Position numbers and translations under genes: made by a program
Assembly (NCBI RefSeq): GCF_030013905.1
Contig: NZ_CP124862.1
Coordinates: 5,397,051-5,461,050 of the forward strand
Source of the DNA: Petroclostridium sp. X23
GTDB lineage: Bacteria > Bacillota > Clostridia > SK-Y3
Direction of reading: 5' to 3'
Length of the DNA stretch: 64,000 nucleotides
Shown here: one piece after another, positions 11,704-50,400 of the stretch
How the letters are laid out: the number at the start of each line of letters is the position of its first letter
Position numbering within the stretch: the first letter of the stretch is position 1
The notes under the pieces: model-generated
The model's database searches: none
Told to the model about the DNA's origin: nothing
Seen by the model: only the letters and a program-made list of their open reading frames with translations

Positions 11704-13188
11704 ATGAAAATCTTATTAAGAGGCCATAACTATCGATATGAAATCGAGCAGATGGTACGTATTTTCTTCGAACAACAGAAGATTGAATACATTGAGAATA
11801 AAGATGAGGTAGAAAACGCAGAGTTCAATATCATAAGTATGTTACAAGAAAGCAGCAGTCAAATAGTAGCTGTTACATATATAGAATATGATGGTAAAAA
11901 TAAAGAATATAAGATTGAAAAACAATACGATACAGAATTAGACGAAGTGGAATATGTGAAGCTATGCAAGGCAATTATAAAACTCTCTTTTTTCAATGCT
12001 GCAAAAGAGGTTGCCTCTGTACAGGTACCGTGGGGTACGCTCACAGGAATACGGCCTACTAAAATCGTACATCACTTAATGGAACAGCAGAAAACAGACC
12101 AAGAGATAAAAAAGATTTTATCAGAGAGGTATGCTGTAACCGCTCAAAAGATAGACTTGGCGCTGGAAGTTGCAAAAAACGAATTAAAGATTCTAAAGAA
12201 GTCTGCACCGGATGCTGTAGCCGTGTATATAGGGATCCCTTTTTGCCCTACCAGATGTCTGTATTGCTCTTTTGTATCTAATTCCGTTCATAGAGCGCAG
12301 AAGTTAATCGAGCCATATATGGATGCATTAATAAAAGAAATAGAGTACACTAAAACAATCATTGACAAGTTGAACTGGAAAGTAGAAAGCGTATATATTG
12401 GTGGAGGTACTCCTACTGTACTGGCGCCCGAGATGATGGATAGGCTGTTGTTTACCTTATTCCAGCAACTGGATTTAACTAAGGTTAAAGAGTTTACCAT
12501 AGAAGCAGGAAGGCCGGATACTATTGACAGGCAAAAGCTTTTAACTATAAGAAACTATCCTGTAAACCGTATCAGCATCAATCCGCAGACCATGCATAAA
12601 GAAACTTTAAAAACCATTGGCAGGTGCCATTCACCTGAAGATATCGTACGTTCCTTTGAATTGGCAAGGGAATTAGGCTTTTCAAATATAAATATGGATG
12701 TTATTGCAGGACTGCCTGATGAAACAGTAGAAATGTATGAAGATACATTAAATAGAATTCAACACATGGCGCCGGAAAACATTACCGTACATACTATGAG
12801 TATTAAAAGAGCCTCACGGTTGAATGAAAAAAAAGATGAATATGCGATAACCCAAGCAAAAGCTGTTCATAGAATGCTGGACTTTACACATCGGTTTATG
12901 AAAGACAATACCATGCTCCCCTATTATATGTACAGGCAGAAAAATATACTAGGCAACCTTGAAAATGTCGGGTACTGTAAGCCTGGTTATGAATGCATTT
13001 ATAACATTCAGATTATGGAAGAACGGCAGAGTATTATCGCATTGGGCTGTGGTGGGGTAACCAAGTTGGTGAATCAGAGAGAAAATCGCATCGACCGCAT
13101 TTTTAATGTTAAGGATGTGGAAGAGTATATACAAAGAATAGATGAAATGCTGGAGAGGAAAAATAAAATTTACCACTATTTTGCATAA
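11704..13188 (+). CDS. hemZ: Coproporphyrinogen III oxidase-like radical SAM protein HemZ
   Basis: The product of 494 residues has the radical SAM cluster motif CPTRCLYCSF (CxxxCxxC, near residue 180) and YIGGGTPT near residue 235, and matches the HemZ branch of the HemN/HemW superfamily, including its N-terminal extension of about 150 residues. HemZ-type proteins are linked to anaerobic haem synthesis, but many HemN relatives have other substrates, so the reaction is inferred. The ATG at 11704 follows GAGGTGG; a GTG at 11692 lies inside that ribosome binding site. Confidence 0.88.
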   Translation: MKILLRGHNYRYEIEQMVRIFFEQQKIEYIENKDEVENAEFNIISMLQESSSQIVAVTYIEYDGKNKEYKIEKQYDTELDEVEYVKLCKAIIKLSFFNAAKEVASVQVPWGTLTGIRPTKIVHHLMEQQKTDQEIKKILSERYAVTAQKIDLALEVAKNELKILKKSAPDAVAVYIGIPFCPTRCLYCSFVSNSVHRAQKLIEPYMDALIKEIEYTKTIIDKLNWKVESVYIGGGTPTVLAPEMMDRLLFTLFQQLDLTKVKEFTIEAGRPDTIDRQKLLTIRNYPVNRISINPQTMHKETLKTIGRCHSPEDIVRSFELARELGFSNINMDVIAGLPDETVEMYEDTLNRIQHMAPENITVHTMSIKRASRLNEKKDEYAITQAKAVHRMLDFTHRFMKDNTMLPYYMYRQKNILGNLENVGYCKPGYECIYNIQIMEERQSIIALGCGGVTKLVNQRENRIDRIFNVKDVEEYIQRIDEMLERKNKIYHYFA

Positions 13189-13258
13189 TAAAAGAATACA
13201 GATAAAAATAAATATCATTGCTGGACATCAAGCAACACTAAAATGGAGGTTGAACCAT

Positions 13259-14923
13259 ATGCTGCAAAAAGAAGATATAATCAAAGTAAATTTGGAACAG
13301 ACGCAAATTGAAGTGAAGAAAGGAACAACTCTTTTAGAACTGGGAAGGCTTTATAAACACGACACTCCATTGGACATCCTGGCCGGTAAAGTGGATAATA
13401 AGATAAAGGACCTTCATTATAAATTGGATAATGATTGTACGGTGCAATTTGTAGACTTGTCTTCCGGTGATGGCGTGCGTGTATATAAAAGAAGTCTGTT
13501 CTTTATACTGAAAATGGCGGTAAGGGAATTATATCCTGATAGAAAATTGAGTATCCGTCATTCCATCAGTAGAGGCACGTATTGTGAAATATATGGAGAG
13601 AGTTCCATTACTGAAATAGAAGTTCACGCAATTGAAGAGAAAATGAAGAGTATGATTTCCCAGGAAATACCAATCTATAAGAATGTTATTACCCTTGAAG
13701 AAGCAAAGGAAATCTTTTATAAGAGTGAAGACTATGATAAAGTAAGTTTACTGGAGCACTGTAAAAAAGACACCATAAGCTTGTACAAGTGTGGAGATAT
13801 GTCAAATTATCTATATGGGTATCTTGTTCCGCATACCGGCTATATTAAGAAATTTGATCTTATGTTTTATACACCGGGATTTATAATAAGGTATCCTGAT
13901 ATGCATTCGCCCAATGATATTCCGAGCTTTGAGGAAAGTAGAAAACTGTTCACTGTGCTGGACGAGTATAAGCGGTGGGGAGAAATACTTGATGTGTCAC
14001 ATGTGGGTTCATTAAATAAGACTATTGATTCAGGAGGTGCAAGAGACGTTATCCATATCTCTGAGGCCCTGCATGAAAAGAAAATCGCTTATATTGCAGA
14101 TATGATAGAAAAAGGGCGTGAGGATATCAAAGTGGTATTGATTTCCGGACCATCTTCCTCAGGAAAAACAACTTTTGCACATCGGCTTGCCATACATCTG
14201 AAAGTTAATGGATTTAAACCGGTTACCATTTCTTTGGACGACTATTTTGTAGATCGAGAGCATACGCCTATAGATGAAGATGGGAAGCCGGATTTTGAGG
14301 CATTGGAAGCGATTGATATTCAGCTATTTAATAAGCAATTAAGCATGCTGATTAATGGTCAGGAAGTAGAAATTCCTATTTTTAATTTCCACTTGGGGCG
14401 TCGGGAGCCACACGGAAGAAAACTGAAGTTGGATAACAACCAAATAGCCATTATCGAGGGGATTCATGGAATGAACGAAAAGCTTACTGCTTCGATTCCC
14501 AGAAAAAACAAGTTTAAGGTATATGTAAGTGCCCTTACACAATTGGGGCTGGATAATTATAATCCTATTTCCACTACAGATACCCGGTTGATTAGAAGGA
14601 TGGTAAGAGATTATAATTTCCGTTCTAACTCTGCGTTAAGGACGCTGGAAATGTGGGGGTCTGTAAGAAGGGGAGAAACAAGAAATATATTTCCATTTCA
14701 GGAACAGGCAGACGTGATGTTTAATTCTGCATTGGTTTATGAGCTTTCAGTGTTGAAGAAATATGCAATGCCCTTGTTAGAGAGTATTGATAGAAGCTGC
14801 GAATTCTATTCTGAAGCGAGAAGATTATTAGACTTTTTGAGCTATTTCTTACCTATAGAACCGGATGATATACCGACTATATCTATTATGCGGGAATTTA
14901 TAGGAGGAAGTTCGCTATATTAA
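13259..14923 (+). CDS. TGS domain plus uridine kinase-like nucleoside kinase
   Basis: The 554-residue protein begins with a TGS-like domain (about residues 5-65) and a threonyl-tRNA synthetase-like second domain (about 70-240). It ends with a P-loop kinase of the uridine kinase/phosphoribulokinase type: GPSSSGKTTFA near residue 298, SLDDYFVDR and EGIHGMNE. This architecture is common in Clostridia; the kinase probably phosphorylates a nucleoside, but the substrate is not established. I chose the ATG at 13259, 8 bp after GGAGGT (13245-13250). The frame is open upstream and overlaps hemZ, but without a ribosome binding site. Confidence 0.88.
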   Translation: MLQKEDIIKVNLEQTQIEVKKGTTLLELGRLYKHDTPLDILAGKVDNKIKDLHYKLDNDCTVQFVDLSSGDGVRVYKRSLFFILKMAVRELYPDRKLSIRHSISRGTYCEIYGESSITEIEVHAIEEKMKSMISQEIPIYKNVITLEEAKEIFYKSEDYDKVSLLEHCKKDTISLYKCGDMSNYLYGYLVPHTGYIKKFDLMFYTPGFIIRYPDMHSPNDIPSFEESRKLFTVLDEYKRWGEILDVSHVGSLNKTIDSGGARDVIHISEALHEKKIAYIADMIEKGREDIKVVLISGPSSSGKTTFAHRLAIHLKVNGFKPVTISLDDYFVDREHTPIDEDGKPDFEALEAIDIQLFNKQLSMLINGQEVEIPIFNFHLGRREPHGRKLKLDNNQIAIIEGIHGMNEKLTASIPRKNKFKVYVSALTQLGLDNYNPISTTDTRLIRRMVRDYNFRSNSALRTLEMWGSVRRGETRNIFPFQEQADVMFNSALVYELSVLKKYAMPLLESIDRSCEFYSEARRLLDFLSYFLPIEPDDIPTISIMREFIGGSSLY

Positions 14924-14998: not shown

Positions 14999-15019
14999 AT
15001 TATTATATATGTTATATAA

Positions 15020-15160
15020 GAGGATGTGAAAAAGTGCTTAATCATTCGGAAATCTAACACGGGGACAGGGCCGCAGTCCGGCCAAAAACCAGGCCTGACA
15101 GCAGACCAGTCCCCATGTCCGATTTCCTCTTCGTGCTAAATCGGACTTTTTCACATCCTC
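15020..15160. repeat. Short element with 16-bp terminal inverted repeats
   Basis: The ends GAGGATGTGAAAAAGT (15020-15035) and its exact inverse (15145-15160) enclose a GC-richer centre. A reduced version that shares GTGAAAAAGTGCTAAATCGGAC lies at 27770-27814. It looks like a non-autonomous mobile element or a strong hairpin. A small block of heptad-like CCCACTA/TCCACTC repeats follows at 15216-15241. Together these fill most of the 450-bp gap before the next gene. Confidence 0.55.
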
Positions 15161-15272
15161 CTATAAATAGCGACTAACAATTTATATCAGCATCATAGAG
15201 TGAGGAGATTTTGTACTCTCCCCACTATCCACTCCCCACTAAGTATATTGGAATAAATGGGCATTTAATCCA

Positions 15273-15302
15273 TTGCTATAATCTATAGCTGTTTGCTATA
15301 AT
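15273..15302 (+). promoter_or_regulatory. Promoter with direct repeat TTGCTATAAT x2
   Basis: TTGCTATAAT occurs at 15273-15282 and again at 15293-15302, exactly 20 bp apart. The second copy supplies a perfect -10 (TATAAT, 15297-15302) and the first a -35-like TTGCTA with an 18-bp spacer. AraC proteins typically bind direct repeats about 20 bp apart, so this could be an autoregulatory site for the downstream regulator (inference). Confidence 0.5.
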
Positions 15303-15373: not shown

Positions 15374-17695
15374 GTGCAAAAAAGGTTTATTTATAATTAT
15401 AAGTTTAACAGTGTATTTATCAAGACCTTTGTAATACTCATTTTGACTTCTATTATACCTGTTGTTGCGGCAAATACAATTATTTATAGAAAATCCACTA
15501 TGACCATCCAGAAACAAACCAGGAATACAAATATGAATATGTTAGGCAAGACCAGTGAAACCGTTGATTTGGTCTTTAAACAAATCGACCAGACAATGCA
15601 GCAAATCGCAAAAGATCCTAGTATCGTGAATTCAATTATTAATCCTGATATCAATTCTATAGGGAGAAATAGTAAAATTATAAGTAATCTGAAAAATATT
15701 GCATCAACCAATAACTATATACTGTCGATATATGTATACTCAGCTTTTAATCAAACAATTATTAGTTCCAGCGGAGGCGTCTACAAGCTGGAAGAGTTTT
15801 ATGATAAAGAATGGCTGAAGGAATATGATAATTTTATTTTAGGTACGCATCAAATGGAAACACGTAAAATCTCAGATGCGTTAGGAAATCAGTATAATGG
15901 TATTACATTTTTTAGAAATCTGCCTTATGCGTCATGGAGCAAATTAGGAGCCATTATTATCAATGTTAGCGAAGATAAATTATATGAGACTATTGCCGGA
16001 TTGGATATGGAAGTAAAGGGTCAATTTTATGTGGCGAATGCAGAAGGAAAGATCTTGATTCACGAAGAAAAGGACAAGTTATATACTAACATAGATATAC
16101 ATGATCGCAACGGTGTATCGTTATTAGTAGATGATAGAGGCTTTTTTATTAATAAGGTTGGAGGAAAGCAAACACTATTCACTTATGTTACTTCTCCTTA
16201 TAACGAGTGGAAATATTTTTATGCTATTCCTTTGGAGTATTTGCAGACTGACTCTGCGATTATTTCCAGGTTAATTGTGATTACGACGCTGATATATATT
16301 TTACTGGGTTTGATACTGTCTTTTCTAATTTCAAAAGGGGTGTACAATCCTATAGAAAAACTAATGAATTTAGTGTTGGCAGAGTCCAAGCAGTCTTTCT
16401 ATGAAGAAAATTTTGATGGAAAGGATGAGTATGAATTCTTAGGATATGCCTATAATCAAGTAGTAGGTAAGAATAAAAGTATGGAAGATATCATCACAAG
16501 TATGAAACCTGTAATGAAAGAAAAGCTATTAACCAGCCTCCTATTAGGTAAAGTGGATAGCTTGAAAGAAATAAGTGAAAAGCTTAGTTTTTTGGAATTG
16601 GATTTTAGTTTGAAGAACTATGTTGTCATCGTCATGCAGATAGACAATTACAGCGAATTTTGCAGCAACCTCAATGAGGTAGACCGGAACTTGTATACAG
16701 CCCAGTTAGTGAATGTTATAGAAGAGAGACTATCCGGTGAGCATAAGGGCGTTTGCATTGAAGTAGAATCTGACAAGGTGGCGGCGATTATCAATTTCAA
16801 TGAAGAGATTACATTGATAGAGGCAAAAAAACAATCTTCTATCATGGCGGCACACATAAAAGATGAGGTGGAAAAGCATTTTCCGTTTACCATTACGCTT
16901 GGGATCGGCAGGATGTATAAGGAAATTACAAATGTTCAATTATCTTATAATGAGGCGGTAAATGCACTCAAATACAAGATTTATCAAGGAAAGAATGAAA
17001 TAATTAATATTGATGATGTAGAGCAGCAGACTGAAGAATTGTATTATTATGATTCGGAAAAAGAAAGAATGCTAATAAATAATCTCAAGGTGGGTCACCA
17101 AAAAGAGGTTGATCAATTAATTGATGAATTATGTCAGGAAATATTGGACAATAGAAATATTTCATATACCTATGTACAGCAAGTATTTATAAGAGTAATC
17201 AGTTCAATCATTGAATTAATTATAAATCTTGGTATGACAACGGATGAGGTTTTTGAGCCGGGTTATAATATGTATGAAGACTTTTCTAATAAAGAGACAA
17301 TAGAAGATATTAAATTCTGGTTATCGGGGATATGCGGAACCATTATTGACAATGTTAATAATTTGAATCAAACAAGATCTCAAAAATATGTAGAAAAGAT
17401 ATTAGAGTATATTGACGAAAATCTTAGCAGCGAAATATCTTTAAATGATATAGCGGATTATGTAGGTCTTAGTCCCACCTATGTCAGCAAAATATTTAAA
17501 GATAGTATGGGTAAGAACTATGTTGATTATCTTAATGCAAGCCGTATAGAGAAAGCGAAACAGCTTTTAAAAAATACACAATTGGCAGTAAAAGAAATCG
17601 GTTTTAGAGTAGGATTTAATACGATCCAGACTTTTATGCGAACTTTTAAAAAATATGAAGGAATTACCCCAGGTCAATTTAGGGATAAAATGTAG
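15374..17695 (+). CDS. Membrane-spanning AraC-family transcriptional regulator (copy 1)
   Basis: The 773-residue protein has membrane helices at about 16-36 and 298-320 enclosing an extracytoplasmic region of about 260 residues. A cytoplasmic linker of about 350 residues follows, then an AraC-type double helix-turn-helix at about 675-772 (SLNDIADYVGLSPTYVSKIF and EIGFRVGFNTIQTFMRTFKK). There is no histidine kinase or receiver domain, so it is a one-component receptor that would bind DNA at the membrane. The start is a GTG, 8 bp after AAGGGGGAA. The next gene begins 26 bp later and encodes a TRAP-type binding-protein paralogue, followed by a TRAP transporter. Copy 2 lies at 28051. It probably activates the TRAP operon; the ligand is unknown. 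Confidence 0.88.
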   Translation: MQKRFIYNYKFNSVFIKTFVILILTSIIPVVAANTIIYRKSTMTIQKQTRNTNMNMLGKTSETVDLVFKQIDQTMQQIAKDPSIVNSIINPDINSIGRNSKIISNLKNIASTNNYILSIYVYSAFNQTIISSSGGVYKLEEFYDKEWLKEYDNFILGTHQMETRKISDALGNQYNGITFFRNLPYASWSKLGAIIINVSEDKLYETIAGLDMEVKGQFYVANAEGKILIHEEKDKLYTNIDIHDRNGVSLLVDDRGFFINKVGGKQTLFTYVTSPYNEWKYFYAIPLEYLQTDSAIISRLIVITTLIYILLGLILSFLISKGVYNPIEKLMNLVLAESKQSFYEENFDGKDEYEFLGYAYNQVVGKNKSMEDIITSMKPVMKEKLLTSLLLGKVDSLKEISEKLSFLELDFSLKNYVVIVMQIDNYSEFCSNLNEVDRNLYTAQLVNVIEERLSGEHKGVCIEVESDKVAAIINFNEEITLIEAKKQSSIMAAHIKDEVEKHFPFTITLGIGRMYKEITNVQLSYNEAVNALKYKIYQGKNEIINIDDVEQQTEELYYYDSEKERMLINNLKVGHQKEVDQLIDELCQEILDNRNISYTYVQQVFIRVISSIIELIINLGMTTDEVFEPGYNMYEDFSNKETIEDIKFWLSGICGTIIDNVNNLNQTRSQKYVEKILEYIDENLSSEISLNDIADYVGLSPTYVSKIFKDSMGKNYVDYLNASRIEKAKQLLKNTQLAVKEIGFRVGFNTIQTFMRTFKKYEGITPGQFRDKM

Positions 17696-17721
17696 TGTGT
17701 AAAGTGAAGGGAGGCATAGTT

Positions 17722-18804
17722 GTGGCAAAAAAAAGGTTGCTGTTCATTTTCTTTTTACTCATATTAATAAGTGCATACTTGGTTCCAAATATGCTTGCGC
17801 ATTACAAAAAAGAAGAACCCGACTTACAAAGAGTAAATAATATTACCGTATCAAGTAACAAAGAAAAAGTAGATTTAATAATATTAAAAATCGCACATTA
17901 TTTTCCTGAGTCTCATCCACAGCATATTGCATTAGTACAGAAATTCATACCTCTTGTTGAGGAGGGTAGCAATTGGAAAATAAGAGTTGAAGTGTATCCA
18001 AACAGTCAATTAGGTGGAGAGAAAGAATATATTCAAGGAGTGAGAAACGGCACTATAGAAATGGGAATAGGGGGGCAGTCTTTGGCAGAGTTGCTGCCGG
18101 GATTTAAAGTGATAGAGTTCCCTTACTTATTTAGCAGCTATGACGAGGCGAAACGTATATTGAATAGTGATATCGGAAATAAGGCTACCGAGGGATTGGA
18201 TGCCCTGGGGGTCTACAGTTTGGCGTGGAGCCTTAACGGATTCCGTCAGATATCAACTTATGATAAGTCATCGAAAGAACTTGAATCACAAGGGAATAAT
18301 AAGATTGCAACTACTTTTTCAACAGAAAATGCTGAAGCACTTAAAGTGATAGGATTTGATGCTGTACCTACGCATGTAGAGGAAATGAGTATTACCCTTA
18401 AGCAAAAAGCCGTTGACGGACACGATAACCCTCCTCTTTTAAGCTACTATAACGGATGGTATGAAACGCAAAAATATATTTTTATTACCAATCATATAAT
18501 TAGTCCTACAATGTACCTCGTGGGTGAGAAGTTTTGGACTTCTCTGCCCGAAGAATATAAAGTATTGATAAAAAATGCTTCTAAGGAAACAGCGGACTAT
18601 GAGACGGAATTATTGAAAGATGCTGAAAAAGACATCTTTAATACGTTAAAAAGTAAAGGTGTAGAGATGGAGTATCCGGATATAGCTGCTTATAAAGAAG
18701 AAATTATGCCTTTATATGATAAGTGGGCAAGTAATAATACGATGAGAGATTTATTAGACGAAATTATAAGTGAAAAAGAAAAATTAGATAACCACTCCAA
18801 TTAA
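17722..18804 (+). CDS. Membrane-anchored TRAP-type binding protein, probable co-sensor (copy 1)
   Basis: The 360-residue protein is homologous to DctP-type solute-binding proteins (FPYLF, VDGHDNP and SPTMYL regions), but its N-terminus is an uncleaved-looking membrane helix (residues 4-24) with no lipobox cysteine. Where the neighbouring transporter proteins have KLRAP, with the family's ligand-binding arginine, this one reads KIATT (Ala196). The earlier arginine in NGFRQIS is kept. It starts with GTG, 8 bp after AAGGGAGG, and lies 26 bp behind the membrane AraC gene. A terminator separates it from dctP. I infer a sensory partner of the regulator, as Bacillus DctB is for DctS, not a transport protein. 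Confidence 0.8.
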   Translation: MAKKRLLFIFFLLILISAYLVPNMLAHYKKEEPDLQRVNNITVSSNKEKVDLIILKIAHYFPESHPQHIALVQKFIPLVEEGSNWKIRVEVYPNSQLGGEKEYIQGVRNGTIEMGIGGQSLAELLPGFKVIEFPYLFSSYDEAKRILNSDIGNKATEGLDALGVYSLAWSLNGFRQISTYDKSSKELESQGNNKIATTFSTENAEALKVIGFDAVPTHVEEMSITLKQKAVDGHDNPPLLSYYNGWYETQKYIFITNHIISPTMYLVGEKFWTSLPEEYKVLIKNASKETADYETELLKDAEKDIFNTLKSKGVEMEYPDIAAYKEEIMPLYDKWASNNTMRDLLDEIISEKEKLDNHSN

Positions 18805-18823: not shown

Positions 18824-18850
18824 AAAAAATGCCTTAGGGCATTTTTTAAA
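18824..18850 (+). terminator. Rho-independent terminator
   Basis: The stem AAAAAATGCC / GGCATTTTTT with loop TTAG ends the regulator/co-sensor unit and separates it from the TRAP operon. Confidence 0.8.
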
Positions 18851-19134
18851 TTCCTTGATAATAGCGGGTTTGAGTGCTTTTAATAAAAGATGTTAATAAA
18901 TCATAAAAAATGTTATTCACATGGTTTTTATAAATTTTAATCAAAAAAATCATTATAAAAAATGGTATAAACACCTAGAGATAAGCAGAATGTAATAAAA
19001 AAGGTTAGCGGCTTTATAAAAGTGTTAATTTACTAATGCGGCATTTTATTATATATTTGACTTAAGGATTTGGTGAATATGCAACAAAAAAAATTATAAA
19101 AAAAAAGAAAATTGTTCAAAGTAACCATTAGTAT

Positions 19135-19300: not shown

Positions 19301-20377
19301 ATGTCTAGAAAAACCAGAAAAACTTTAGCACTTGTGCTTGCAGCGGTATTCGTATTAACGCTTGCATTTACAGGATGTGCCCCCAAACAGGAAGAAGCAA
19401 AGGATACACCAGGTCAAGAAGCACCTAAACAAGAGGCACCTAAGCAAGATGAGAAAAAAGCAGCAGATAAAGTTGTAACTTATAAACTCGCGCATGTATA
19501 TGCTCCTGATCATCCATTCTCAAAAGGTATGGACAAATTGGCTGAAACAGTCAAGACCAAATCAAATGGAAAGCTTGTGATTAATCACTATCCTGCAGCA
19601 CAATTAGGTAGTGAAAAAGATATTGCAGACGGCATCGTAAATGGTATCGTTGATATGGCGATTATCGGACCTGGAGAATTAGGAAAGAGATTTAAGCCTA
19701 TATTGGTATTTGATGCGCCTTATGTATTTAGAGACGTAGATCATATGCAAAAAGTAACCACAGGAGATGTAGGGAACGAGTTGTGGGAAAAAATGGCATC
19801 TGAAACAGGTATTCGTGAATTAGCTGCATTGTACTATGGCACCAGATATGTAACCACTTCTAAGGTGCCTATAAAGACTCCGGCCGATTTAAAAGGATTA
19901 AAGCTTAGAGCTCCTGACCAACCTTTAAGTGTTGCCAATGCTAAAGCAATGGGTGCCAATCCTACTCCAATGGCATTATCGGAAGTATATCTTGCATTAC
20001 AACAAGGTGTTGTTGACGGACAGGAGAACCCTATTCCAACAATCGCCAGCCAAAAATTTAATGAAGTTCAAAAGTATATTAATTTAACAGGACATGTTGT
20101 CCAAGTAACGCCAATCGTTATGTCTGAAAAGAAATTAAAAGAGCTGCCTGACGATTTAAAACAAATCCTTATGGATGCAGTAAAAGAAATAGCACCTACC
20201 ATTAATCAAGAAATTGCGGATAATGAAAAAGCAACACTTGAAGAATTCAAAAAGGGTGGAATGGAAGTTATTGAATCGGATGTTGAAGCATTTAGAACAG
20301 CCACTGCTTCAGTCATCAAAGAGTTTGAAAGCACATGGGGCCAAGGTTTGTTTGAGAAAATACAGGCTGTAAAATAA
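19301..20377 (+). CDS. dctP: TRAP transporter solute-binding lipoprotein (system 1)
   Basis: The 358-residue lipoprotein has a lipobox LAFTGC (Cys26), a charged linker (27-58) and a full DctP domain. The ligand-binding arginine is Arg203 in KLRAPDQP; GTRYVTTSKVP and VDGQENP are also present. Family members bind carboxylates (C4-dicarboxylates, sialic or sugar acids) outside the membrane and hand them to DctQM. A perfect AAGGAGG precedes the ATG. A stem-loop separates it from dctQ. The exact ligand cannot be told from sequence. Confidence 0.95.
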   Translation: MSRKTRKTLALVLAAVFVLTLAFTGCAPKQEEAKDTPGQEAPKQEAPKQDEKKAADKVVTYKLAHVYAPDHPFSKGMDKLAETVKTKSNGKLVINHYPAAQLGSEKDIADGIVNGIVDMAIIGPGELGKRFKPILVFDAPYVFRDVDHMQKVTTGDVGNELWEKMASETGIRELAALYYGTRYVTTSKVPIKTPADLKGLKLRAPDQPLSVANAKAMGANPTPMALSEVYLALQQGVVDGQENPIPTIASQKFNEVQKYINLTGHVVQVTPIVMSEKKLKELPDDLKQILMDAVKEIAPTINQEIADNEKATLEEFKKGGMEVIESDVEAFRTATASVIKEFESTWGQGLFEKIQAVK

Positions 20378-20439: not shown

Positions 20440-20907
20440 ATGAAGATTTGGGATAAAATTGAGGAATGGTTCGTACTCAGTACCCTTGCTGTCATGGGTA
20501 TTGTTTTGACTGTTCAGGTCTTTATGAGATATATATTTAATTACCCCTTAGTATGGAGTGAAGAGCTTGCCAGATATCTTTTTGTATGGCTTGCGTTTAT
20601 AGGTGCGGGTTATGGTGTAAGACATCATATCCACATTGAGATGGAGGCATTTTATAATAAGTTTCCTCCAACCATGAAGAAAATAGTAACAGTTACTACT
20701 AATGCATTAGCGATCTTTTGTTTTGCTTATATTATTCCATACGGGATAAAATTTACGATAGAACAGCATAGCATAGCATCGTCTGCAATGGGGATTCCTA
20801 TGAGCTATGTAGTAGCGGCTGTGCCCATTGGATGTATTATCGTGGTTTTACGGCTGCTTATTGAGACAATTGGTGTATTTATTCCGAAGAAGGGGGGAAA
20901 TATATAA
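20440..20907 (+). CDS. dctQ: TRAP transporter small permease subunit (system 1)
   Basis: The 155-residue protein has four predicted membrane helices and the family signature WSEELARYLFVWLAFIG near residue 38. DctQ forms the small subunit that helps the binding protein dock to DctM. TAGGAGG lies upstream of the ATG. Its TAA overlaps the first base of the dctM ATG at 20907, indicating translational coupling. Confidence 0.95.
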   Translation: MKIWDKIEEWFVLSTLAVMGIVLTVQVFMRYIFNYPLVWSEELARYLFVWLAFIGAGYGVRHHIHIEMEAFYNKFPPTMKKIVTVTTNALAIFCFAYIIPYGIKFTIEQHSIASSAMGIPMSYVVAAVPIGCIIVVLRLLIETIGVFIPKKGGNI

Positions 20908-22187
20908 TGCTTACACTGTTGGGAACATTGTTGCTTCTTTTAATACTTAAGGTTCCGGTAGCTTTCTCGTTATTTATTAGTTCATTATTCTATCTTATAA
21001 CTAAAGATATATCTCCCCTTATTGCGGTACAAAGAATGGCGATGGGGGTAGGGGATTCCTTTCCGTTAATGGCGGTTCCGTTTTTCATTTTGGCAGGATC
21101 TATTATGAACTCGGGCGGAATTACCGAAAGATTATTTTCATTTGCAAATAAGCTTGTAGGGCATATTACCGGTGGTTTAGGCCATGCGAATATACTTGCG
21201 AGTATTATTTTTTCCGGTATGTCCGGTACGGCAATTGCTGACGCGGGAGGATTAGGAGCTATAGAATTAAAAGCAATGAAGGATGCCGGATATGATGAAG
21301 ATTTTAGTTTGGCTGTCACCGGTGCGTCGTCCATCATTGGTCCGATTATCCCGCCTAGTGTACCAGCTGTTGTATTTGGCGTTATTGCCGGTGTATCCAT
21401 AGGACGGCTATTTATTGCGGGGGTATTACCCGGACTATTTATGGGATTGGTCATGGCCGGTTTGGTATATCATCAAAGTAAAAAGAGGAATTATCCGAAA
21501 GAACGCAAGGCTACTTTCAGAGAGATATTATCTGCGACAAAATCATCTTTCTTTCCGCTTTTGACGCCGGTAGTAATTATCGGAGGAATTCTGATAGGTG
21601 TGTTTACGCCTACCGAAGCCGCCATTATTGCGGTGATATATTCTCTTATACTGGCATTTGTATATCGTTCTATTACTATTAAGGATTTGCCGCGTTTTTT
21701 AAGAGAAACAGCAAATACGACAGTTGGTGTTATGCTGATTGTAGCAGCTGCTTCTCTATTTGGATGGATATTGGCCAGTGAACAGATTCCACAGAAATTA
21801 TCTCAATTTTTCCTTGCCAATTTCCCGAATAAATATATGGCGCTTTTAGTAATCAATATCTTTCTATTAATTGCAGGTACTTTTATGGAAACAATTGCGG
21901 CGCTTACCATATTAACGCCTGTATTAATGCCGGTAGTTATGGGACTGGGAATAGATCCTGTACATTTTGGGATTGTTATGATATTGAATCTGATGATAGG
22001 ATTGCTGACTCCTCCTGTAGGAATGGTACTATATGTACTAGCCGGTGTATCCAAAGTTCCTTTTGAAAAGATATCGAAGGCAGTTACGCCGTATTTGATT
22101 ATATTAGCGGTAACGCTGTTGATTATAACCTACGTTCCGCAGATTTCGCTATTTTTGCCTGACTTGCTATTTGGAGCAGCGAAATAA
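20907..22187 (+). CDS. dctM: TRAP transporter large permease subunit (system 1)
   Basis: The 426-residue hydrophobic protein of about 12 helices carries DctM signatures: MAVPFFILAGSIMNSGG near residue 50, SGMSGTAIADAGGLGAIE near residue 107 and GPIIPPSVPAV near residue 145. It is the ion-motive-force-driven membrane pore of the transporter, probably Na+-coupled as in the characterised TRAP systems. It is the last gene of operon 1, followed at once by a tandem heptad repeat. Confidence 0.95.
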   Translation: MLTLLGTLLLLLILKVPVAFSLFISSLFYLITKDISPLIAVQRMAMGVGDSFPLMAVPFFILAGSIMNSGGITERLFSFANKLVGHITGGLGHANILASIIFSGMSGTAIADAGGLGAIELKAMKDAGYDEDFSLAVTGASSIIGPIIPPSVPAVVFGVIAGVSIGRLFIAGVLPGLFMGLVMAGLVYHQSKKRNYPKERKATFREILSATKSSFFPLLTPVVIIGGILIGVFTPTEAAIIAVIYSLILAFVYRSITIKDLPRFLRETANTTVGVMLIVAAASLFGWILASEQIPQKLSQFFLANFPNKYMALLVINIFLLIAGTFMETIAALTILTPVLMPVVMGLGIDPVHFGIVMILNLMIGLLTPPVGMVLYVLAGVSKVPFEKISKAVTPYLIILAVTLLIITYVPQISLFLPDLLFGAAK

Positions 22188-22468: not shown

Positions 22469-24412
22469 ATGTATTCAATTGGATTAATCTCGCCTTATGA
22501 GAAACTTGTGGATATTGCAAAAGAAATAAACGACATGACTGATGAACAGATTGATATTGAATTAGGAGATATGAATGAGGCTATCCCTATTGCCAATAAA
22601 ATGATTTCTGAAGGAGTGGAAGTGATTATCAGCAGGGGTGGGACGGCCATTGTGCTCAGAGAGTTCATAGATGTGCCCATCGTTGAGATTCAGATTACAT
22701 CCATTGATATTATGCGATCTATAAAAGAAGCGAAAAAAAAAGGGAAGAATATTGGATTTTTGGGATATGACAATGTGGTATATAATATTGAAACCATCGC
22801 AGAGATTTTGGATGTAAATCTTATACCGGTTATTTTTAATAAAGCGGAGACCATTGAACAAAAGAAAGCGAAGATTATGCAGCTCATAGGAAAAGCAGAG
22901 ATGGTAATAGGAGATCATATATCTATTCAAATTGCCAGACAATGCGGCATTGAGGGACTGTTGATTGAGTCGGGAAAGGATTCTGTCTTAGAAAGCATTT
23001 CGGAGGCAAAAAAGATAAGAGATGCTACCAATAGAGAGAGAGAACGTTTCGAAGAGTTAAAAGCCATACTAGACTATAGTCATGACGGTATTATGAGTAT
23101 TAGCAATAAAGGACAAATAAAGTTTTTTAACCCTGCGGCGGAAAAAGTTTTTAATATACACAAAGATCGAGTAATAGGACATAGTATTAATGATGTACTG
23201 CCTCATGTTAATTTTAAGGATGTTATAAAGAACGGGCAATCGAAAGTGGACGAGTTTTATAATATTGGGGAAAAAATTATTATTGCCAGTACACTGCCTA
23301 TTAAGATTAGAGATAAAATTACAGGGGCTTTAAGCGTATTTCAGGATATAAGCAATATACAAAATACAGAAGAAAAAATCAGGAAGAAAGTATATTTAAA
23401 AGGACATGTAGCTCGGTATCATTTTGAGGATATGATTACCGGAAATGAGAAGATGAATAAGTTAGTAGATATCGCTAAATTGTATGCCAATACCAGTTCA
23501 AATATTCTTCTTGTAGGAGAAACGGGTACCGGCAAAGAATTTTTTGCTCAGGGAATTCATAATGCGAGCAGTAGAAAAAAAAGACCCTTTGTGGCTTTAA
23601 ATTGTGCTGCTTTGCCTGATAATCTTTTGGAGAGTGAATTGTTCGGATATGAGGAAGGTGCCTTTACCGGGGCGAAAAAGGGTGGAAAACAAGGTCTTTT
23701 TGAACTTGCCCACAGCGGAACAATTTTTTTAGATGAAATTGGTGAAATTGCGCCCCACATACAAACCAGACTTTTAAGGGTACTGCAGGAAAAGCAGGTG
23801 ATGAGGTTAGGAAGCGACCGGGTAATGCCTGTGGACGTAAGAGTTATTGCCGCAACAAATAAAGATTTGAAAAAAGCCATAGATGACAACATTTTTAGAG
23901 AAGATCTCTATTACCGGTTAAATGTTCTAACTTTAAAAATTCCCCCTCTAAGAGAGAGAAAAGATGCAATCCCGTTATTTGTCCATTCATTTATTGAGAA
24001 ATATTGCAGGAAAAACGATATAGATGTAAAAACAGTGTCGGAAGAAGCAATGAATGCTTTACAATCATACAATTGGTATGGGAATGTTCGAGAATTGGAA
24101 AATGTAGTAGAAAGACTGGCAATCATTGTTCCGGCAAAGCGTGTAGAGCTTTATCACATTAAAAACTTTATTGATGATTGGGATGAAGAAGTACCGCCGG
24201 TAATACAAGAAAATAATGAGCATCCGGATATATCGGAGGAATATAAAATTCGATTGGACATCAATAGAAGTTTAAAAGAGATTGAAAGTGAGATCATAAA
24301 AAAGGTACTTGAATTTACAGGTGATGACAGGACAAAAGCAGCTAAAATATTAGGGATAGGTAGAACTACATTGTGGAGATGGATCAATGACTCGGGTTGT
24401 GTTTCGGATTGA
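22469..24412 (+). CDS. Sigma-54-dependent activator with PrpR-type sensor and PAS domain
   Basis: The 647-residue protein has an N-terminal PrpR_N-like sensor domain (about 1-185; GVEVIISRGGTA near residue 50), a PAS domain (about 195-300) and an AAA+ domain (about 325-560) with Walker A GETGTGKE, the sigma-54-contacting GAFTGA loop and GTIFLDEIGE. A Fis-type helix-turn-helix (RTKAAKILGIGRTTLWRWI) ends the protein. PrpR_N domains bind small organic metabolites. A -24/-12 promoter lies 314 bp downstream, before the dehydrogenase/transketolase operon, which is the obvious target. The inducer is not known. The start is the ATG at 22469 after AGAGAGG. Confidence 0.93.
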   Translation: MYSIGLISPYEKLVDIAKEINDMTDEQIDIELGDMNEAIPIANKMISEGVEVIISRGGTAIVLREFIDVPIVEIQITSIDIMRSIKEAKKKGKNIGFLGYDNVVYNIETIAEILDVNLIPVIFNKAETIEQKKAKIMQLIGKAEMVIGDHISIQIARQCGIEGLLIESGKDSVLESISEAKKIRDATNRERERFEELKAILDYSHDGIMSISNKGQIKFFNPAAEKVFNIHKDRVIGHSINDVLPHVNFKDVIKNGQSKVDEFYNIGEKIIIASTLPIKIRDKITGALSVFQDISNIQNTEEKIRKKVYLKGHVARYHFEDMITGNEKMNKLVDIAKLYANTSSNILLVGETGTGKEFFAQGIHNASSRKKRPFVALNCAALPDNLLESELFGYEEGAFTGAKKGGKQGLFELAHSGTIFLDEIGEIAPHIQTRLLRVLQEKQVMRLGSDRVMPVDVRVIAATNKDLKKAIDDNIFREDLYYRLNVLTLKIPPLRERKDAIPLFVHSFIEKYCRKNDIDVKTVSEEAMNALQSYNWYGNVRELENVVERLAIIVPAKRVELYHIKNFIDDWDEEVPPVIQENNEHPDISEEYKIRLDINRSLKEIESEIIKKVLEFTGDDRTKAAKILGIGRTTLWRWINDSGCVSD

Positions 24413-24432
24413 AACATAATCCGAGTTTGTTT
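24390..24432 (+). terminator. Terminator overlapping the 3' end of the activator gene
   Basis: A 16-bp stem with two G-T pairs (24390-24405 with 24411-24426, loop GGATT) is followed by TTTGTTT. The apex contains TGTTTC-N5-GAAACA, a perfect palindrome that could alternatively be an enhancer site for the activator. Confidence 0.65.
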
Positions 24433-24572
24433 CATAATAGAACGATTGTCGCAAGCTTAACTGGGATAAGCCTTTGGTATAAATATGCTGATTGTTTATA
24501 TATAATGGTTCCATATTGAAACGTAAGTATATGAATGATGTTTTATATTCTGGAAAATGTGTAATTTATATA

Positions 24573-24600
24573 GTAGGGGCGGATGACTCTGTCCGCCCGA
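24573..24600. repeat. GC-rich palindromic repeat, single arm
   Basis: GTAGGGGCGGATGACTCTG followed by TCCGCCCGA matches the left arm of the elements at 11482 and 48752; only a degenerate GTAGGCGAACAGGG follows at about 24620. It sits in the 405-bp gap before the dehydrogenase gene. Other features of this gap are a GTATTT-N6-AAATAC dyad (24649-24666) and a CCTAA-TAC-TTAGG dyad (24703-24715), possible activator sites. Confidence 0.6.
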
Positions 24601-24725
24601 ATTTGTAATTTTTGCTGTTTGTAGGCGAACAGGGATCAGATTATTTGCGTATTTGGTAAAAAATACAGTTTAAAACCTAATTTTTTTATTTATATGGGGC
24701 AACCTAATACTTAGGGTAAAATAAT

Positions 24726-24740
24726 TGGCATGGTTATTGC
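24726..24740 (+). promoter_or_regulatory. Sigma-54 (-24/-12) promoter
   Basis: TGGCATG-GTTA-TTGC matches the consensus TGGCACG-N4-TTGC at all but one position, and the GG (24727-24728) and GC (24739-24740) doublets are exactly 12 bp apart. It points at the dehydrogenase/transketolase operon, 78 bp before the ATG, and lies just downstream of a sigma-54 activator gene. Confidence 0.85.
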
Positions 24741-24788
24741 TTATATAATAAGTGTAATTAACAAGCTCGTTTATGAGAGGAGGGTTAA

Positions 24789-24810
24789 CCGTATTGTATG
24801 TACAATACGG
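24789..24810 (+). promoter_or_regulatory. Perfect palindrome between SD-like sequence and start codon
   Basis: CCGTATTGTA-TG-TACAATACGG is a perfect 10+2+10 inverted repeat. It lies between a strong ribosome-binding-like GAGGAGGG (24776-24783) and the ATG at 24818. As RNA it would form a hairpin that could bring the ribosome binding site near the start or hide it. Confidence 0.6.
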
Positions 24811-24817
24811 GAATTCT

Positions 24818-25861
24818 ATGAAAGCATTAGTAAAATACGCTAGAGGAAACGGGAATATGGAAATCAGAGATATACCTGAACCGAAACCAGGACCGGGGCA
24901 GGTGAAAATAGAAGTGAAAGCCGCGGGAATCTGTGGTTCGGATCTTCATATCTATCATGATGATATTGACGGTATTCCTATTAATCCACCGGTCATTACA
25001 GGACATGAGTTCTGTGGTGTGGTTGTTGAAGTTGGAGAAGGAGTTACTGAATGGAAACCAGGGGACAGAGTGACATCCGAAACAGCATATAGCTTCTGCG
25101 GGAAATGTCACTATTGTATTACCGGATATTATAATTTATGTAATAATAGAAGGACTTTGGGATACTGGTACAATGGTGCTTTCGCAAAATATACCATGGT
25201 GCCGCACGAAAGAGTACATGCGCTTCCTGATAGTATTGATTTTGTTTCGGGCGCATTGATTGAGCCTTTGGCATGTATCACACATGCTGTTTTGGAGCTG
25301 ACTACTATTACCGTAAGCGATGTCGTACTGGTTCAAGGTCCTGGTGCCATTGGATTGGCAACGATGCAGGTAGCAAAATCTCAAGGAGCTACGGTGATTG
25401 TATCGGGTACAGATGTTGATGCTGAAAGATTAAAGATGGCAAAAGAATTGGGAGCAGACTATACGATTAATGTCCAGCAAGAAGATTTGTCTAAATTTGT
25501 ATCGGAATTGACAAATGGTAGAGGTGTAGATATCGTCTTCGAATGCTCTGGGGTTGGAAGAGCTATCGATGGTGCTTTAAATGTAATTAAAAAGCAAGGA
25601 CAGTTTACCCAAATCGGTTTGTTTGGAAAGCCTATCACCATTGATTTTGAAAGAATTTGCTATAAAGAGCTAAAAGTAACCGGTTCACTAGGTTCCAGAT
25701 GGACCTCATGGGAAAAAGCGATTCAGCTTCTAGAACAGGGCAAAGTTAAAACAAAACCGCTTGTATCCCATCAGTTCCCCATTACCGAATGGGAAAAAGC
25801 TTTTGAAATGTTTGAAAGCAAGCAAGGTCTGAAATTGGTATTACTGCCGGTTGAAGATTAA
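24818..25861 (+). CDS. Zinc-dependent medium-chain dehydrogenase (sorbitol/threonine dehydrogenase-like)
   Basis: The 347-residue enzyme has catalytic-zinc residues in GICGSD and TGHEF, the structural-zinc cysteine cluster CGKCHYCITGYYNLC and a nucleotide-binding GPGAIG motif. It should oxidise a polyol, sugar or hydroxy acid with NAD(P)+. I start at the ATG at 24818, where the family homology begins (MKALVKYA). In-frame alternatives are the ATG at 24773 and a TTG at 24794, the latter well placed after GAGGAGGG. It is the first gene of a sigma-54 operon with a split transketolase. The substrate is not determined. Confidence 0.88.
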   Translation: MKALVKYARGNGNMEIRDIPEPKPGPGQVKIEVKAAGICGSDLHIYHDDIDGIPINPPVITGHEFCGVVVEVGEGVTEWKPGDRVTSETAYSFCGKCHYCITGYYNLCNNRRTLGYWYNGAFAKYTMVPHERVHALPDSIDFVSGALIEPLACITHAVLELTTITVSDVVLVQGPGAIGLATMQVAKSQGATVIVSGTDVDAERLKMAKELGADYTINVQQEDLSKFVSELTNGRGVDIVFECSGVGRAIDGALNVIKKQGQFTQIGLFGKPITIDFERICYKELKVTGSLGSRWTSWEKAIQLLEQGKVKTKPLVSHQFPITEWEKAFEMFESKQGLKLVLLPVED

Positions 25862-25879
25862 TATAAAGGAGGAGATCAT

Positions 25880-27814: not shown

Positions 27815-27856
27815 ATAAAGTTTGAATAATGTGAATAGAAGTGTTTATGTAAAATG

Positions 27857-31535: not shown

Positions 31536-31591
31536 AAAAAGCTTTCTGTCTTGGATATCATTGCAGTTAATTAAAGATAGAAAGCTTTTTT
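31536..31591 (+). terminator. Rho-independent terminator
   Basis: A 12-bp stem (AAAAAGCTTTCT / AGAAAGCTTTTT) with a 31-base loop ends the second regulator/co-sensor unit. The remaining 220 bp to dctP are AT-rich; I see no convincing -35/-10 pair there. Confidence 0.75.
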
Positions 31592-31809
31592 AGTATTAAC
31601 AAATAGTAAAACGATGAACGTTTTGTAAACAAACTGTGTTACAAAGGGCTTTAAACATAGCGTGTGGGCAAAAAGTTCATTCCTTTTAAAAATGTACATT
31701 TACAGATAAGAATATTTCCACTATATTAAACTTGTACAATTCAATATGCTGCAGCATTGAGAAAATTATCTATAATTACTAAAATTACCAAACTTAAGGA
31801 GGAGTTATA

Positions 31810-32874
31810 ATGTTTAAGAAAAAAACGAAAGCTTTGATCCTGGTTATGGCAGCTGTATTTATTTTTGGTTCTATATTCTCTGGTTGTGGTACAAAAAGTG
31901 AACCTGCAGCAGATAAAAACGATGCTAAACAGGAAGCACCTAAAACTGAAGCGCCAAAAGATGAAAAAACCTATACTTTTAAAATGGGTCATGTTTTACC
32001 CACAGACCATTTGAATCATTTAGGATCGGAACATTTCGCAAAGCTTGTAAATGAAAAAACCGGAGGCAAGGTTACTATCGAAATATATCCTGCGGCTCAG
32101 CTTGGTTCAGAAAAGGATCATTCCGATGCAGTAGCGATGGGAACACTTGATTTTGCATTGATTGGTATGGGAGAAATCGCAAAGAGATATAAACCGGCGC
32201 TGATATTTGACGGACCATTCATTTTTAGAGATAGAGATCACCTGATTAATGTATTTAAAAGTGATTTATTTGCAAAGATGGCCGATGAATCGGCGGCTAA
32301 GGCCGGCATTCGTCCTATTGGCGGCACTTACTACGGTACACGTCATGTAACCACCAGCAAAGTTGCTGCTAAAACACCTGAAGAATTAAAAGGCTTAAAA
32401 CTCAGATGTCCGGATCAACCTATGTTTGTTGGTGTTGTTAAAGCAATGGGTGCTACACCTGCTCCTATGGCTTTCTCAGAAGTATATCTGGCATTACAGC
32501 AAGGTGTTGTGGATGGGCAGGAAAATCCTGCAGCCGCTATTACATCCATGAAGTTCTTTGAGGTACAAAAATACCTTATTAAAACCGGTCATATCGCTCA
32601 AGGAAATCATATTTTCGTGAGTGAGAAAGTATTCAAGACACTTCCGGAAGATATCCAAAAGGCTATTTTGGAAGCCGGACAGGAGACTGCTGACTGGGTT
32701 AATGAACAAGCCTTTGCTTTAGAAGATAAATTGCTAAAAGAACTTGTTGAGAAAGGCATGACAATCGTAGAGCCTGACCGTGAAGCATTTATTAAAGCTG
32801 CTCAACCGCTGTATGATGAGTATGAAAGCCAGTGGGGAGAAGGATTGCTTGAGGACATAAGAGCAATAAAATAG
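31810..32874 (+). CDS. dctP: TRAP transporter solute-binding lipoprotein (system 2)
   Basis: The 354-residue lipoprotein has a lipobox SIFSGC (Cys26) and the DctP fold with Arg199 in KLRCPDQP, GTRHVTTSKV and VDGQENP. It is clearly paralogous to system 1, with the conserved stretches AAQLGSEKD and SEVYLALQQGVVDGQENP. It presumably binds a related carboxylate. AAGGAGG precedes the ATG. It sits downstream of its own membrane AraC/co-sensor pair, as in system 1. Confidence 0.95.
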   Translation: MFKKKTKALILVMAAVFIFGSIFSGCGTKSEPAADKNDAKQEAPKTEAPKDEKTYTFKMGHVLPTDHLNHLGSEHFAKLVNEKTGGKVTIEIYPAAQLGSEKDHSDAVAMGTLDFALIGMGEIAKRYKPALIFDGPFIFRDRDHLINVFKSDLFAKMADESAAKAGIRPIGGTYYGTRHVTTSKVAAKTPEELKGLKLRCPDQPMFVGVVKAMGATPAPMAFSEVYLALQQGVVDGQENPAAAITSMKFFEVQKYLIKTGHIAQGNHIFVSEKVFKTLPEDIQKAILEAGQETADWVNEQAFALEDKLLKELVEKGMTIVEPDREAFIKAAQPLYDEYESQWGEGLLEDIRAIK

Positions 32875-32988: not shown

Positions 32989-33492
32989 ATGAAGCAATCC
33001 AATAAATTGCTCAAAATATTGTGGAATATAGAAGAAATCATTTTAATGATCTGCTTGGCTGTGATGGGGATATCGTTATTCTTGCAAGTAGTATTCAGAT
33101 ATCTGTTTAACATGCCGTTAATATGGAGTGAAGAATTAGCGAGATATCTGCATGTATGGATCACTTTTATAGGATTAGGATACGGAATAAGAAACAAATC
33201 GCATATTGAGATGAAAATATTCTATCAGAAGTTACCTGTTGCGGGACAAAAAACCGTAACGATATTAACGAATTTATTTTTAGTTTTATGCTTTGTTTTT
33301 TACATGCCTGGGGTAATGCGTTTTGTGATGGACCAAAATCTCATAGATTCTGCTGCGATGGGAGTAAGAATGAGCATCGTATATATTGTGCTGCCAATTG
33401 GCGCAATTGTCTCAATACTCTATCTACTGACTGATACATGGCTGAATGTAATTAGTCTGACCGGTATGAAAGAGAGGGAAAACAGATGTTAA
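32989..33492 (+). CDS. dctQ: TRAP transporter small permease subunit (system 2)
   Basis: The 167-residue, four-helix protein contains IWSEELARYLHVWITFIGLGYG near residue 44, the DctQ signature. AAGGAGG precedes the ATG, and its last 7 bases overlap the start of dctM, indicating coupled translation. It is the paralogue of the system 1 subunit. Confidence 0.95.
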   Translation: MKQSNKLLKILWNIEEIILMICLAVMGISLFLQVVFRYLFNMPLIWSEELARYLHVWITFIGLGYGIRNKSHIEMKIFYQKLPVAGQKTVTILTNLFLVLCFVFYMPGVMRFVMDQNLIDSAAMGVRMSIVYIVLPIGAIVSILYLLTDTWLNVISLTGMKERENRC

Positions 33493-34757
33493 TATTATTC
33501 GGAGTATTTTTTATTCTTTTAATACTAGGTGTGCCTGTGGGATTCAGTTTATTTGGCAGTTCCGTCCTGTATATGGTCGTCAATGATATTCCGTTGGAGA
33601 TGGCAGCTCAAAGGCTTGCGGCAGGTCCGGATTCTTTTCCGCTGCTTGCAATCGCGTTTTTCGTTTTAGCAGGCAGTATTATGAATTCCGGTGGAATCAC
33701 CAGAAAAATATTTGATTTTGCTGATCATATCGTTGGTCATTTTACCGGGGGTTTAGGGCATGCGAATATCCTGGCAAGTATTATTTTTTCCGGTATGTCC
33801 GGTTCAGCTGTAGCAGATACCGGTGGATTAGGCGCAATTGAATTGCAGGCAATGAAAGAAGCGGGCTATGATGAAGATTTCAGTCTTGCGGTTACCGGTG
33901 CGTCAGCCATTATCGGGCCTATCATACCTCCAAGTATTCCTGCGGTTATTTTTGGTGTAACCTCCGGCGTATCTATAGGAAGGTTATTCGCAGGAGGAGT
34001 CATTCCGGGACTTCTTATGGGTGGAGCTATGTCCGCCATGGTATATTTTATCAGTAAAAAGAAGAAATATCCAAAACGCAAAAGGGCTTCATTCAAAGAA
34101 ATTTTCCATGCTTTAAAGAGCGCATTTCTGCCGCTGCTCGCGCCGGTAATCATTATTGGCGGGATCATAGGCGGTGTTTTTACACCCACGGAAGCGGCTA
34201 TTGCGGCGGTTTTCTATGCATTATTATTAAGTTTTATTTATAAAGAAATAAGGATTACGCAGTTGCCGGGGTTTTTACGTGAAACATTGAACACAACGAT
34301 AGGAATTTTATTCATTATCTCAAGTGCCAATCTTTTTGGCTGGATTATGACTACATCACAGGTACCGCAAAAGCTGGCTGTGGCGTTTTTAAGTGTGATT
34401 GCGGATAAATATTTGGCATTATTAGTACTTAATGTATTTTTATTATTAGTTGGATGTTTTTTAGAAACTTCAGCAGCACAGATTATACTTGTACCCATTT
34501 TGGTTCCGATGGTGATGAAGATGGGTGTGGACCCTGTACATTTTGGTATCATTATGATATTAAACCTAATGATCGGATTAATGACACCTCCGATAGGCTT
34601 GGTGCTGTATGTGCTTTCAAGTATTTCAAAAGTACCGTTTGAAAAGATATCTAAGGCAATACTGCCGTATGTGCTGGTATTAGGTGTTGTTTTATTGGTA
34701 ATCACTTATGTTCCTATTTTAGTGACCTTCTTACCGGATTTACTGTTTGGCAATTAG
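33486..34757 (+). CDS. dctM: TRAP transporter large permease subunit (system 2)
   Basis: This 423-residue polytopic protein shows the DctM motifs FFVLAGSIMNSGGITRK, SGMSGSAVADTGGLGAIE and GPIIPPSIPAVIFG, and aligns throughout with the system 1 DctM. It drives substrate import with an ion gradient. Its TAG is part of a GC-rich hairpin (34757-34778). The next gene faces it on the other strand. Confidence 0.95.
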   Translation: MLILFGVFFILLILGVPVGFSLFGSSVLYMVVNDIPLEMAAQRLAAGPDSFPLLAIAFFVLAGSIMNSGGITRKIFDFADHIVGHFTGGLGHANILASIIFSGMSGSAVADTGGLGAIELQAMKEAGYDEDFSLAVTGASAIIGPIIPPSIPAVIFGVTSGVSIGRLFAGGVIPGLLMGGAMSAMVYFISKKKKYPKRKRASFKEIFHALKSAFLPLLAPVIIIGGIIGGVFTPTEAAIAAVFYALLLSFIYKEIRITQLPGFLRETLNTTIGILFIISSANLFGWIMTTSQVPQKLAVAFLSVIADKYLALLVLNVFLLLVGCFLETSAAQIILVPILVPMVMKMGVDPVHFGIIMILNLMIGLMTPPIGLVLYVLSSISKVPFEKISKAILPYVLVLGVVLLVITYVPILVTFLPDLLFGN

Positions 34758-46761: not shown

Positions 46762-46763
46762 AT

Positions 46764-50332: not shown

Positions 50333-50400
50333 AAGATTTAACGTGTTATTTTAGACAAATTGTTACTCTTATACAATGTATGATGTGAGGAGCGGTATTC

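Follow-up and report, generated by a model that had tools for sequence, protein, structure and literature searches.

At positions 15374 to 18804 of the window, i.e. the whole stretch of 64,000 nucleotides of Petroclostridium sp. X23 DNA that was analysed, a gene for a membrane AraC regulator is followed by a gene for a TRAP-type binding protein (SBP) of the DctP family, behind which lies a DctPQM transporter operon. The question raised by this locus is whether the extra DctP feeds the transporter or senses on behalf of the regulator. The results described below make it moderately likely that the pair consists of a one-component regulator, acting on the adjacent TRAP operon, and a dedicated, tethered SBP as its co-sensor.

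Results

A membrane regulator and an apparently tethered DctP

The regulator, P0001 (15374..17695, + strand; ORF call, domain profiles, AF2 model and fold match), is a 773-residue AraC protein with two membrane helices, as the original prediction had it. Domain profiles assign a dCache_1 domain to residues 44-282, a GGDEF-like domain to residues 395-533 and an AraC HTH to residues 693-771, and the domain profile search found neither a receiver domain nor a kinase domain in P0001. In the AF2 model TM1 lies inside helix 14-79 and helix 294-344 begins with TM2, with the Cache domain being flanked by TM helices and the long helix running into the cytoplasmic part; in a fold search P0001 matched dCache sensor domains, close to direct ligand-binding chemoreceptor domains. 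With a TM-flanked sensor and a DNA-binding domain in a single chain from which a receiver is absent, P0001 has the make-up of a one-component AraC regulator, which supports the proposal that it acts in the membrane without a phosphorelay. The putative promoter of the first regulator unit, TTGCTA-18-TATAAT (15273..15302, + strand; consensus scan), is without the box described below for the TRAP promoters; similar TATAAT promoters precede, by eye, the orthologous regulators.

The GTG start of P0002, the DctP paralogue (17722..18804, + strand; ORF, alignment and model), has GGGAGG upstream and lies 26 bp past the P0001 gene. The longest ORF opens at 17695, and the predicted GTG start and 26-bp gap are right provided that translation begins at GTG 17722. 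P0002 has no lipobox, an N-terminal TM helix, and Ala205 in place of the Arg of the TRAP selectivity filter. The anticipated repeat of the pair at 28051 is real, comprising a second membrane one-component regulator, P0003 (28051..30375, + strand; ORF call and domain profiles), and, after 20 bp, P0004 (30396..31487, + strand; ORF and alignment), which has a TTG start with GGGGGG upstream, no lipobox and Ala for the filter Arg. Both DctP paralogues match PF03480 (Pfam; E=6.8e-62 for P0002 and 4.5e-57 for P0004).

The model of P0002 (mean pLDDT 89) has an N-terminal helix (residues 11-36) that a loose linker joins to a complete binding-protein fold, and its best PDB matches in a fold search are TRAP SBPs, i.e. 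4pbq and SiaP R147A (2xwk). The N-terminal helix is apparently an uncleaved membrane tether; the alignment and the model thus confirm that the lipobox is replaced by a membrane anchor, as had been claimed, and these proteins are termed tethered DctPs here. Export as a lipoprotein and encoding with its own DctQM are usual for a Gram-positive DctP, and neither was found for the tethered DctPs.

Ahead of both regulator genes, at window 15015-15165 and at about 27776-27825, lies a small repeat that bears terminal inverted repeats (GAGGATGTGAAAAAGTGC...); about 20 similar repeat ends of the GAGGATGTGAAAAAGTGC type are present in the X23 genome, with 0 in the reversed control, suggesting a MITE-like element. 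Window 13142-14923 encodes a 593-aa protein with TGS and threonyl-tRNA-synthetase-like N-terminal parts and a uridine-kinase domain.

Terminators and neighbouring TRAP operons

Folding recovered an intrinsic terminator behind pair 1 (18824..18847, + strand; perfect 10-bp stem, fold z=-3.95) and a terminator-like hairpin behind pair 2 (31536..31590, + strand; 17-bp stem, fold z=-4.76), both of which were missed by a consensus terminator scan because of a stem that extends into the T tract or a long loop. No terminator-like structure was found by folding between the regulator gene and the tethered DctP gene. For both copies, these results support the view that the pair is cut off from the TRAP operon by a terminator and forms its own transcription unit.

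Beyond the first terminator lie transport DctP 1 (19301..20377; lipobox FTGC, filter Arg present; profile and alignment), DctQ 1 (20440..20907) and DctM 1 (20907..22187), and beyond the second lie transport DctP 2 (31810..32874; lipobox FSGC, filter Arg present; profile and alignment), DctQ 2 (32989..33492) and DctM 2 (33486..34757), all on the + strand and with DctQ and DctM identified by domain annotation. Behind TRAP operon 1, window 22469-27653 carries genes for a PrpR/PrdR-like sigma-54 activator, a threonine-dehydrogenase-like zinc dehydrogenase and a split transketolase; the matching locus in genome G001 also bears a dehydrogenase and a PrpR-like gene. A YesN/YesM-type two-component pair is encoded on the minus strand at window 45133-52205, beside a third TRAP operon (49112-52205), and X23 therefore seems to control TRAP operons by both one- and two-component systems.

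Recurrence of the layout in other genomes

The order regulator, tethered DctP, DctPQM was found at four loci in three genomes, i.e. two in Petroclostridium sp. X23, one in G001, which is of the same family (contig JASGMB010000058.1), and one in the MAG SZUA-474 (QKEK01000115.1); at the G001 tethered locus a zinc alcohol dehydrogenase gene intervenes. Four more close regulator orthologues lie directly ahead of ordinary DctPQM operons (sister loci L035 and L036 in the X23 genome, L065 in G001 and L066 in G003), with an IS110-type transposase inserted between regulator and operon at L035. The DctPs of the sister loci carry both the lipobox and the filter Arg. Taking the four tethered and four sister loci together, regulator-DctP adjacency is thus 8/8 in this regulator clade, and it is not a matter of chance, since the order recurs in two other genomes and all four X23 regulator orthologues adjoin DctP genes. 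The survey of conserved adjacency, proposed beforehand as a check, was therefore positive.

A scan of genome contigs with the tethered DctPs as query gave two loci only. Phylum-wide searches (399 genomes each) revealed no further tethered DctPs among the best matches, which were ordinary Arg-bearing sugar-acid TRAP SBPs with a lipobox or signal peptide, some of them outscoring the sister loci; in the phylum-wide sample (399 genomes) no close regulator orthologue was found outside the X23 genome. The nearest relatives that bear the Arg are encoded in sugar-acid operons, along with KDPG aldolase, keto-deoxy-galactonokinase and LarA-like genes.

The neighbours of most related Cache-AraC genes are ordinary ABC genes, a dedicated SBP being absent, and the dCache domain may therefore be able to sense alone. 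Taken further, this would mean that the regulator described here senses via its own dCache domain, the fold of which is near those of direct ligand-binding chemoreceptor domains, and that the tethered DctP is carried along as a hitch-hiker or does something unrelated. This is unlikely, however, given that the pairing is kept under strong purifying selection at all four loci in the three genomes, and that loss of the lipobox and of the filter Arg is common to all tethered DctPs.

Other Cache-AraC regulators are encoded 4-94 bp from a co-directional orphan SBP that belongs to another family (Peripla_BP_4 or SBP_bac_1), possible pairs being L117:5088-8350, L124:5074-8916, L130:5025-8949 and L049:3131-7001, of which the last, in the X23 genome, lies immediately ahead of a TRAP operon; the theme may therefore be wider. 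A different arrangement is present at L061:8512-10728 (G000:C1:2767011-2769224), where a 738-aa fusion protein has a CdaR/PucR-type regulator (cytosolic, GGDEF-like plus HTH_30) in frame with a whole DctP domain that retains the filter Arg; the gene adjoins a TRAP operon, and no full-length relative of the fusion was found at E<1e-60 in 40 related genomes.

Residues lost and kept in the tethered DctPs

The DctP alignment comprised 52 sequences, i.e. 48 ordinary DctPs and the four tethered DctP sequences known, and nine wider relatives, which belong to other families in the phylum, were checked additionally. SiaP R147 is the Arg by which TRAP binding proteins grip the substrate carboxylate (PMC4646407); Arg is present at this position in 48/48 ordinary DctPs and 9/9 wider relatives, and is replaced by Ala in 4/4 tethered DctPs. 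The lipobox Cys is present in 47/48 ordinary versus 0/4 tethered DctPs, and a Gly conserved in 45 of the 48 ordinary sequences is Trp in all four tethered ones. At the position of SiaP E172, which is required for transporter contact (PMC9352664), the ordinary DctPs have E (46/48) or D (2/48), and the tethered DctPs E/D/E/Q. SiaP R147A (PDB 2xwk, PMC4646407) carries an engineered Arg-to-Ala change at the same position as the tethered DctPs, but is a laboratory mutant of a transport SBP, whereas the change in the tethered DctPs is natural and fixed in the clade. A search for residues common to the regulator-partner DctPs yet missing from their nearest non-partner relatives found none, and hence no interface signature.

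Although two otherwise near-invariant features have been lost, it is extremely improbable that the tethered DctP is a decaying duplicate becoming a pseudogene: the genes are intact at four loci, the same substitution has become fixed in each of them, dN (0.30-0.43) is far below dS (above 2.7 or saturated), indicating purifying selection, and the model has a high-confidence fold.

Retention of the fold and of a second pocket Arg (SiaP R127 equivalent) in 4/4 tethered DctPs, together with reports that SiaP R147A still sustains transport at millimolar substrate (PMC9352664, PMC4646407), would be consistent with the tethered DctP being an alternative, low-affinity SBP that feeds the neighbouring DctQM and has a TM helix as its anchor in place of a lipid. 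We doubt this, given that the TRAP operon already carries its own DctP, that the tethered DctP sits with the regulator gene on the far side of the terminator, that its clade differs from that of the adjoining transport DctP (see below), and that the transporter-contact Glu is relaxed in two of the four tethered DctPs. Because it is membrane-tethered and lacks the acid-gripping residue, the tethered DctP probably serves sensing for the regulator rather than feeding the transporter; the original prediction had likewise held that it was unlikely to feed the transporter, a view supported by the tether, the terminator and the placement with the regulator.

A putative operator at the TRAP promoters

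A box with the pattern GT[TAC][AC]ATTTAC-N18-TANNNT lies upstream of the TRAP operon at 8/8 regulator-linked loci; in the window it takes the form GTTAATTTAC-N18-TATATT at TRAP operon 1 (19024..19057, + strand; pattern search and shuffle test) and GTACATTTAC-N18-TATATT at TRAP operon 2 (31694..31727, + strand; pattern search). The position of the box, 18 bp ahead of a TANNNT -10 element, makes it overlap with the -35 of the TRAP promoter. The pattern has 8 occurrences in 1.40 Mb of sequence (both strands summed), all at linked TRAP promoters and 0 elsewhere, a count that is partly circular because the motif was defined on the same loci. The shuffle test, in which a 10-mer was common to 7/8 upstream regions versus at most 5 in 200 shuffles, is not circular. 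In the whole X23 genome the 15-mer core has, at <=1 mismatch, four sites, of which three (including both exact ones) are at the described loci, with the reversed control giving six matches versus four forward. The GTTAATTTAC version with the exact 18-bp spacing has six matches in four whole genomes, all at regulator-linked loci; at a looser spacing of 15-19 bp, the reversed-control counts in four whole genomes are comparable to the forward ones. A second half-site, as a direct repeat about 19-20 bp upstream of the box, was plausible by eye at some loci and unsupported overall.

We consider it highly probable, from the placement and distribution of this putative operator box, that the regulator controls the adjacent TRAP promoter through it. 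At the tethered loci, the regulator-DctP gap is 20-74 bp and box-free, and the box follows the tethered DctP, which is therefore on the regulator's side; at the sister loci, where DctP is an ordinary transporter subunit, the gap is 408-1985 bp and the box lies inside it.

Phylogeny

In the DctP tree the tethered DctPs form a single clade (support 100/100), nested in a 100/98 group with the DctPs of the four regulator-DctPQM operons, and the transport DctPs adjoining the tethered loci form a separate clade (support 100/100). The regulator tree resolves tethered versus untethered loci poorly (73/92), and is compatible with the DctP tree, if weakly. The simplest account of these trees would be that the transporter behind the regulator was exchanged and the regulator retained its DctP partner. 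The ancestor would have been a dual-role DctP of a regulator-linked TRAP operon, the transporter of which was replaced by another TRAP lineage; the single DctP at the sister loci may serve both transport and sensing. Retention of the partner through the proposed transporter exchange is the strongest argument that the tethered DctP belongs to the regulator.

The apparent exchange also bears on the proposal that the tethered DctP binds to DctQM and keeps the regulator informed of how occupied or abundant the transporter is, with its own ligand binding mattering little. Such a role would fit the loss of the filter Arg, and transporter-coupled sensing has precedent in DctA for DcuS/DctS (PMC6978683); however, the QM-contact Glu varies within the tethered set, and the transporter was apparently exchanged whereas the partner stayed, making this role quite improbable. 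Co-sensing for the regulator by the tethered DctP is the reading that we favour, with reasonable though limited confidence.

Discussion

SBP co-sensors encoded beside sensors (CuaD, XylFII and DctB) and a direct link from an SBP to a DNA-binding regulator (CBP-ChiS) are already known; what is new in the pair described here is the TRAP-family SBP, the AraC one-component partner and the loss of the selectivity filter. ChiS, which lacks an AraC domain, is a hybrid kinase of a non-canonical type, and its SBP partner CBP is soluble and of the ABC type. DctB of Bacillus subtilis we take to be a DctP-family protein. ChiS of Vibrio cholerae is activated by CBP once this SBP has bound chitin (PMC11856585), a case of an SBP governing a transmembrane regulator whose DNA binding is direct, whereas the pair described here has an AraC domain, a dCache sensor and a tethered TRAP-type SBP. 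CadC of Escherichia coli is likewise a membrane one-component transcription activator, coupled to a transport protein, LysP, as co-sensor (PMC6978683), but CadC has a ToxR-type winged helix and LysP is a permease, not an SBP. Given these two precedents, the earlier statement that the combination was not known as described was too strong. The original prediction is extended here by the sister loci, the operator box and the finding that the filter Arg is lost.

CuaD-CuaSR of Ruminiclostridium cellulolyticum, in which CuaDSR is constitutive and CuaABC is induced (PMC10384115), and XylFII-LytSR of Clostridium beijerinckii, in which an SBP is the co-sensor of a kinase system (cited in PMC10384115, PMC9602780), are mechanistically closer parallels than DctB-DctS. 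In both, a second SBP, apart from the transport SBP, is encoded with the sensor in a separate operon adjoining the controlled transporter operon, and the tethered DctPs are likewise second SBPs beside a sensor and distinct from the transport SBP. The differences are that those systems employ a histidine kinase, a response regulator and ABC sugar SBPs, whereas an AraC regulator, P0001, which is without a kinase or receiver domain, and a TRAP-family SBP are present here; further, CuaD retains its lipobox and binds cellobiose tightly (PMC10384115), whereas the tethered DctPs lack the filter Arg. DctB is also a co-receptor of a membrane sensor (PMC6978683), but its partner DctS is a kinase and the transporter is DctA, whereas the unit described here is without a kinase gene. 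The SBP-stimulated receptors covered in a review comprise chemoreceptors, kinases, c-di-GMP enzymes and Ser/Thr kinases (PMC9602780). In the literature found, direct SBP-to-transcription-factor links are documented for CBP-ChiS only, and a literature search on membrane AraC proteins gave nothing usable.

In the mechanism that we propose, the two-gene unit would be expressed at a basal level, and the tethered DctP would capture an external ligand and dock onto the dCache domain that the regulator dimer exposes outside the cytoplasm. From there the signal would reach, by way of TM2, the long helix after TM2 and the GGDEF-like domain, the AraC domain, which would bind GTTAATTTAC over the -35 and so activate the DctPQM operon. 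Since the filter Arg is missing, tight binding of a carboxylate ligand is improbable; the ligand is probably a neutral relative of the transported acid, or merely a weakly bound acid, and the best reading is that the co-sensor serves a non-carboxylate ligand or has a ligand-poor role. As the Arg-bearing relatives occur in sugar-acid operons, a neutral sugar-acid relative is a reasonable first guess, no more. It is possible, though we hold this only tentatively, that a tethered sensor lineage arose from TRAP SBPs, with the AraC regulator inducing an acid transporter when a non-carboxylate compound that this transporter would not take up is sensed, or when the partner is unliganded.

The tethered DctPs represent natural R147A-like SBPs, which let one ask what such proteins bind once transport is lost, and the compact one-component module, with two genes and one defined box, is suited to co-sensing tests. 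The described case also points to a possible evolutionary path from a dual-role transporter subunit to a dedicated sensor, and would extend the range of SBP-stimulated receptors to TRAP SBPs and AraC regulators.
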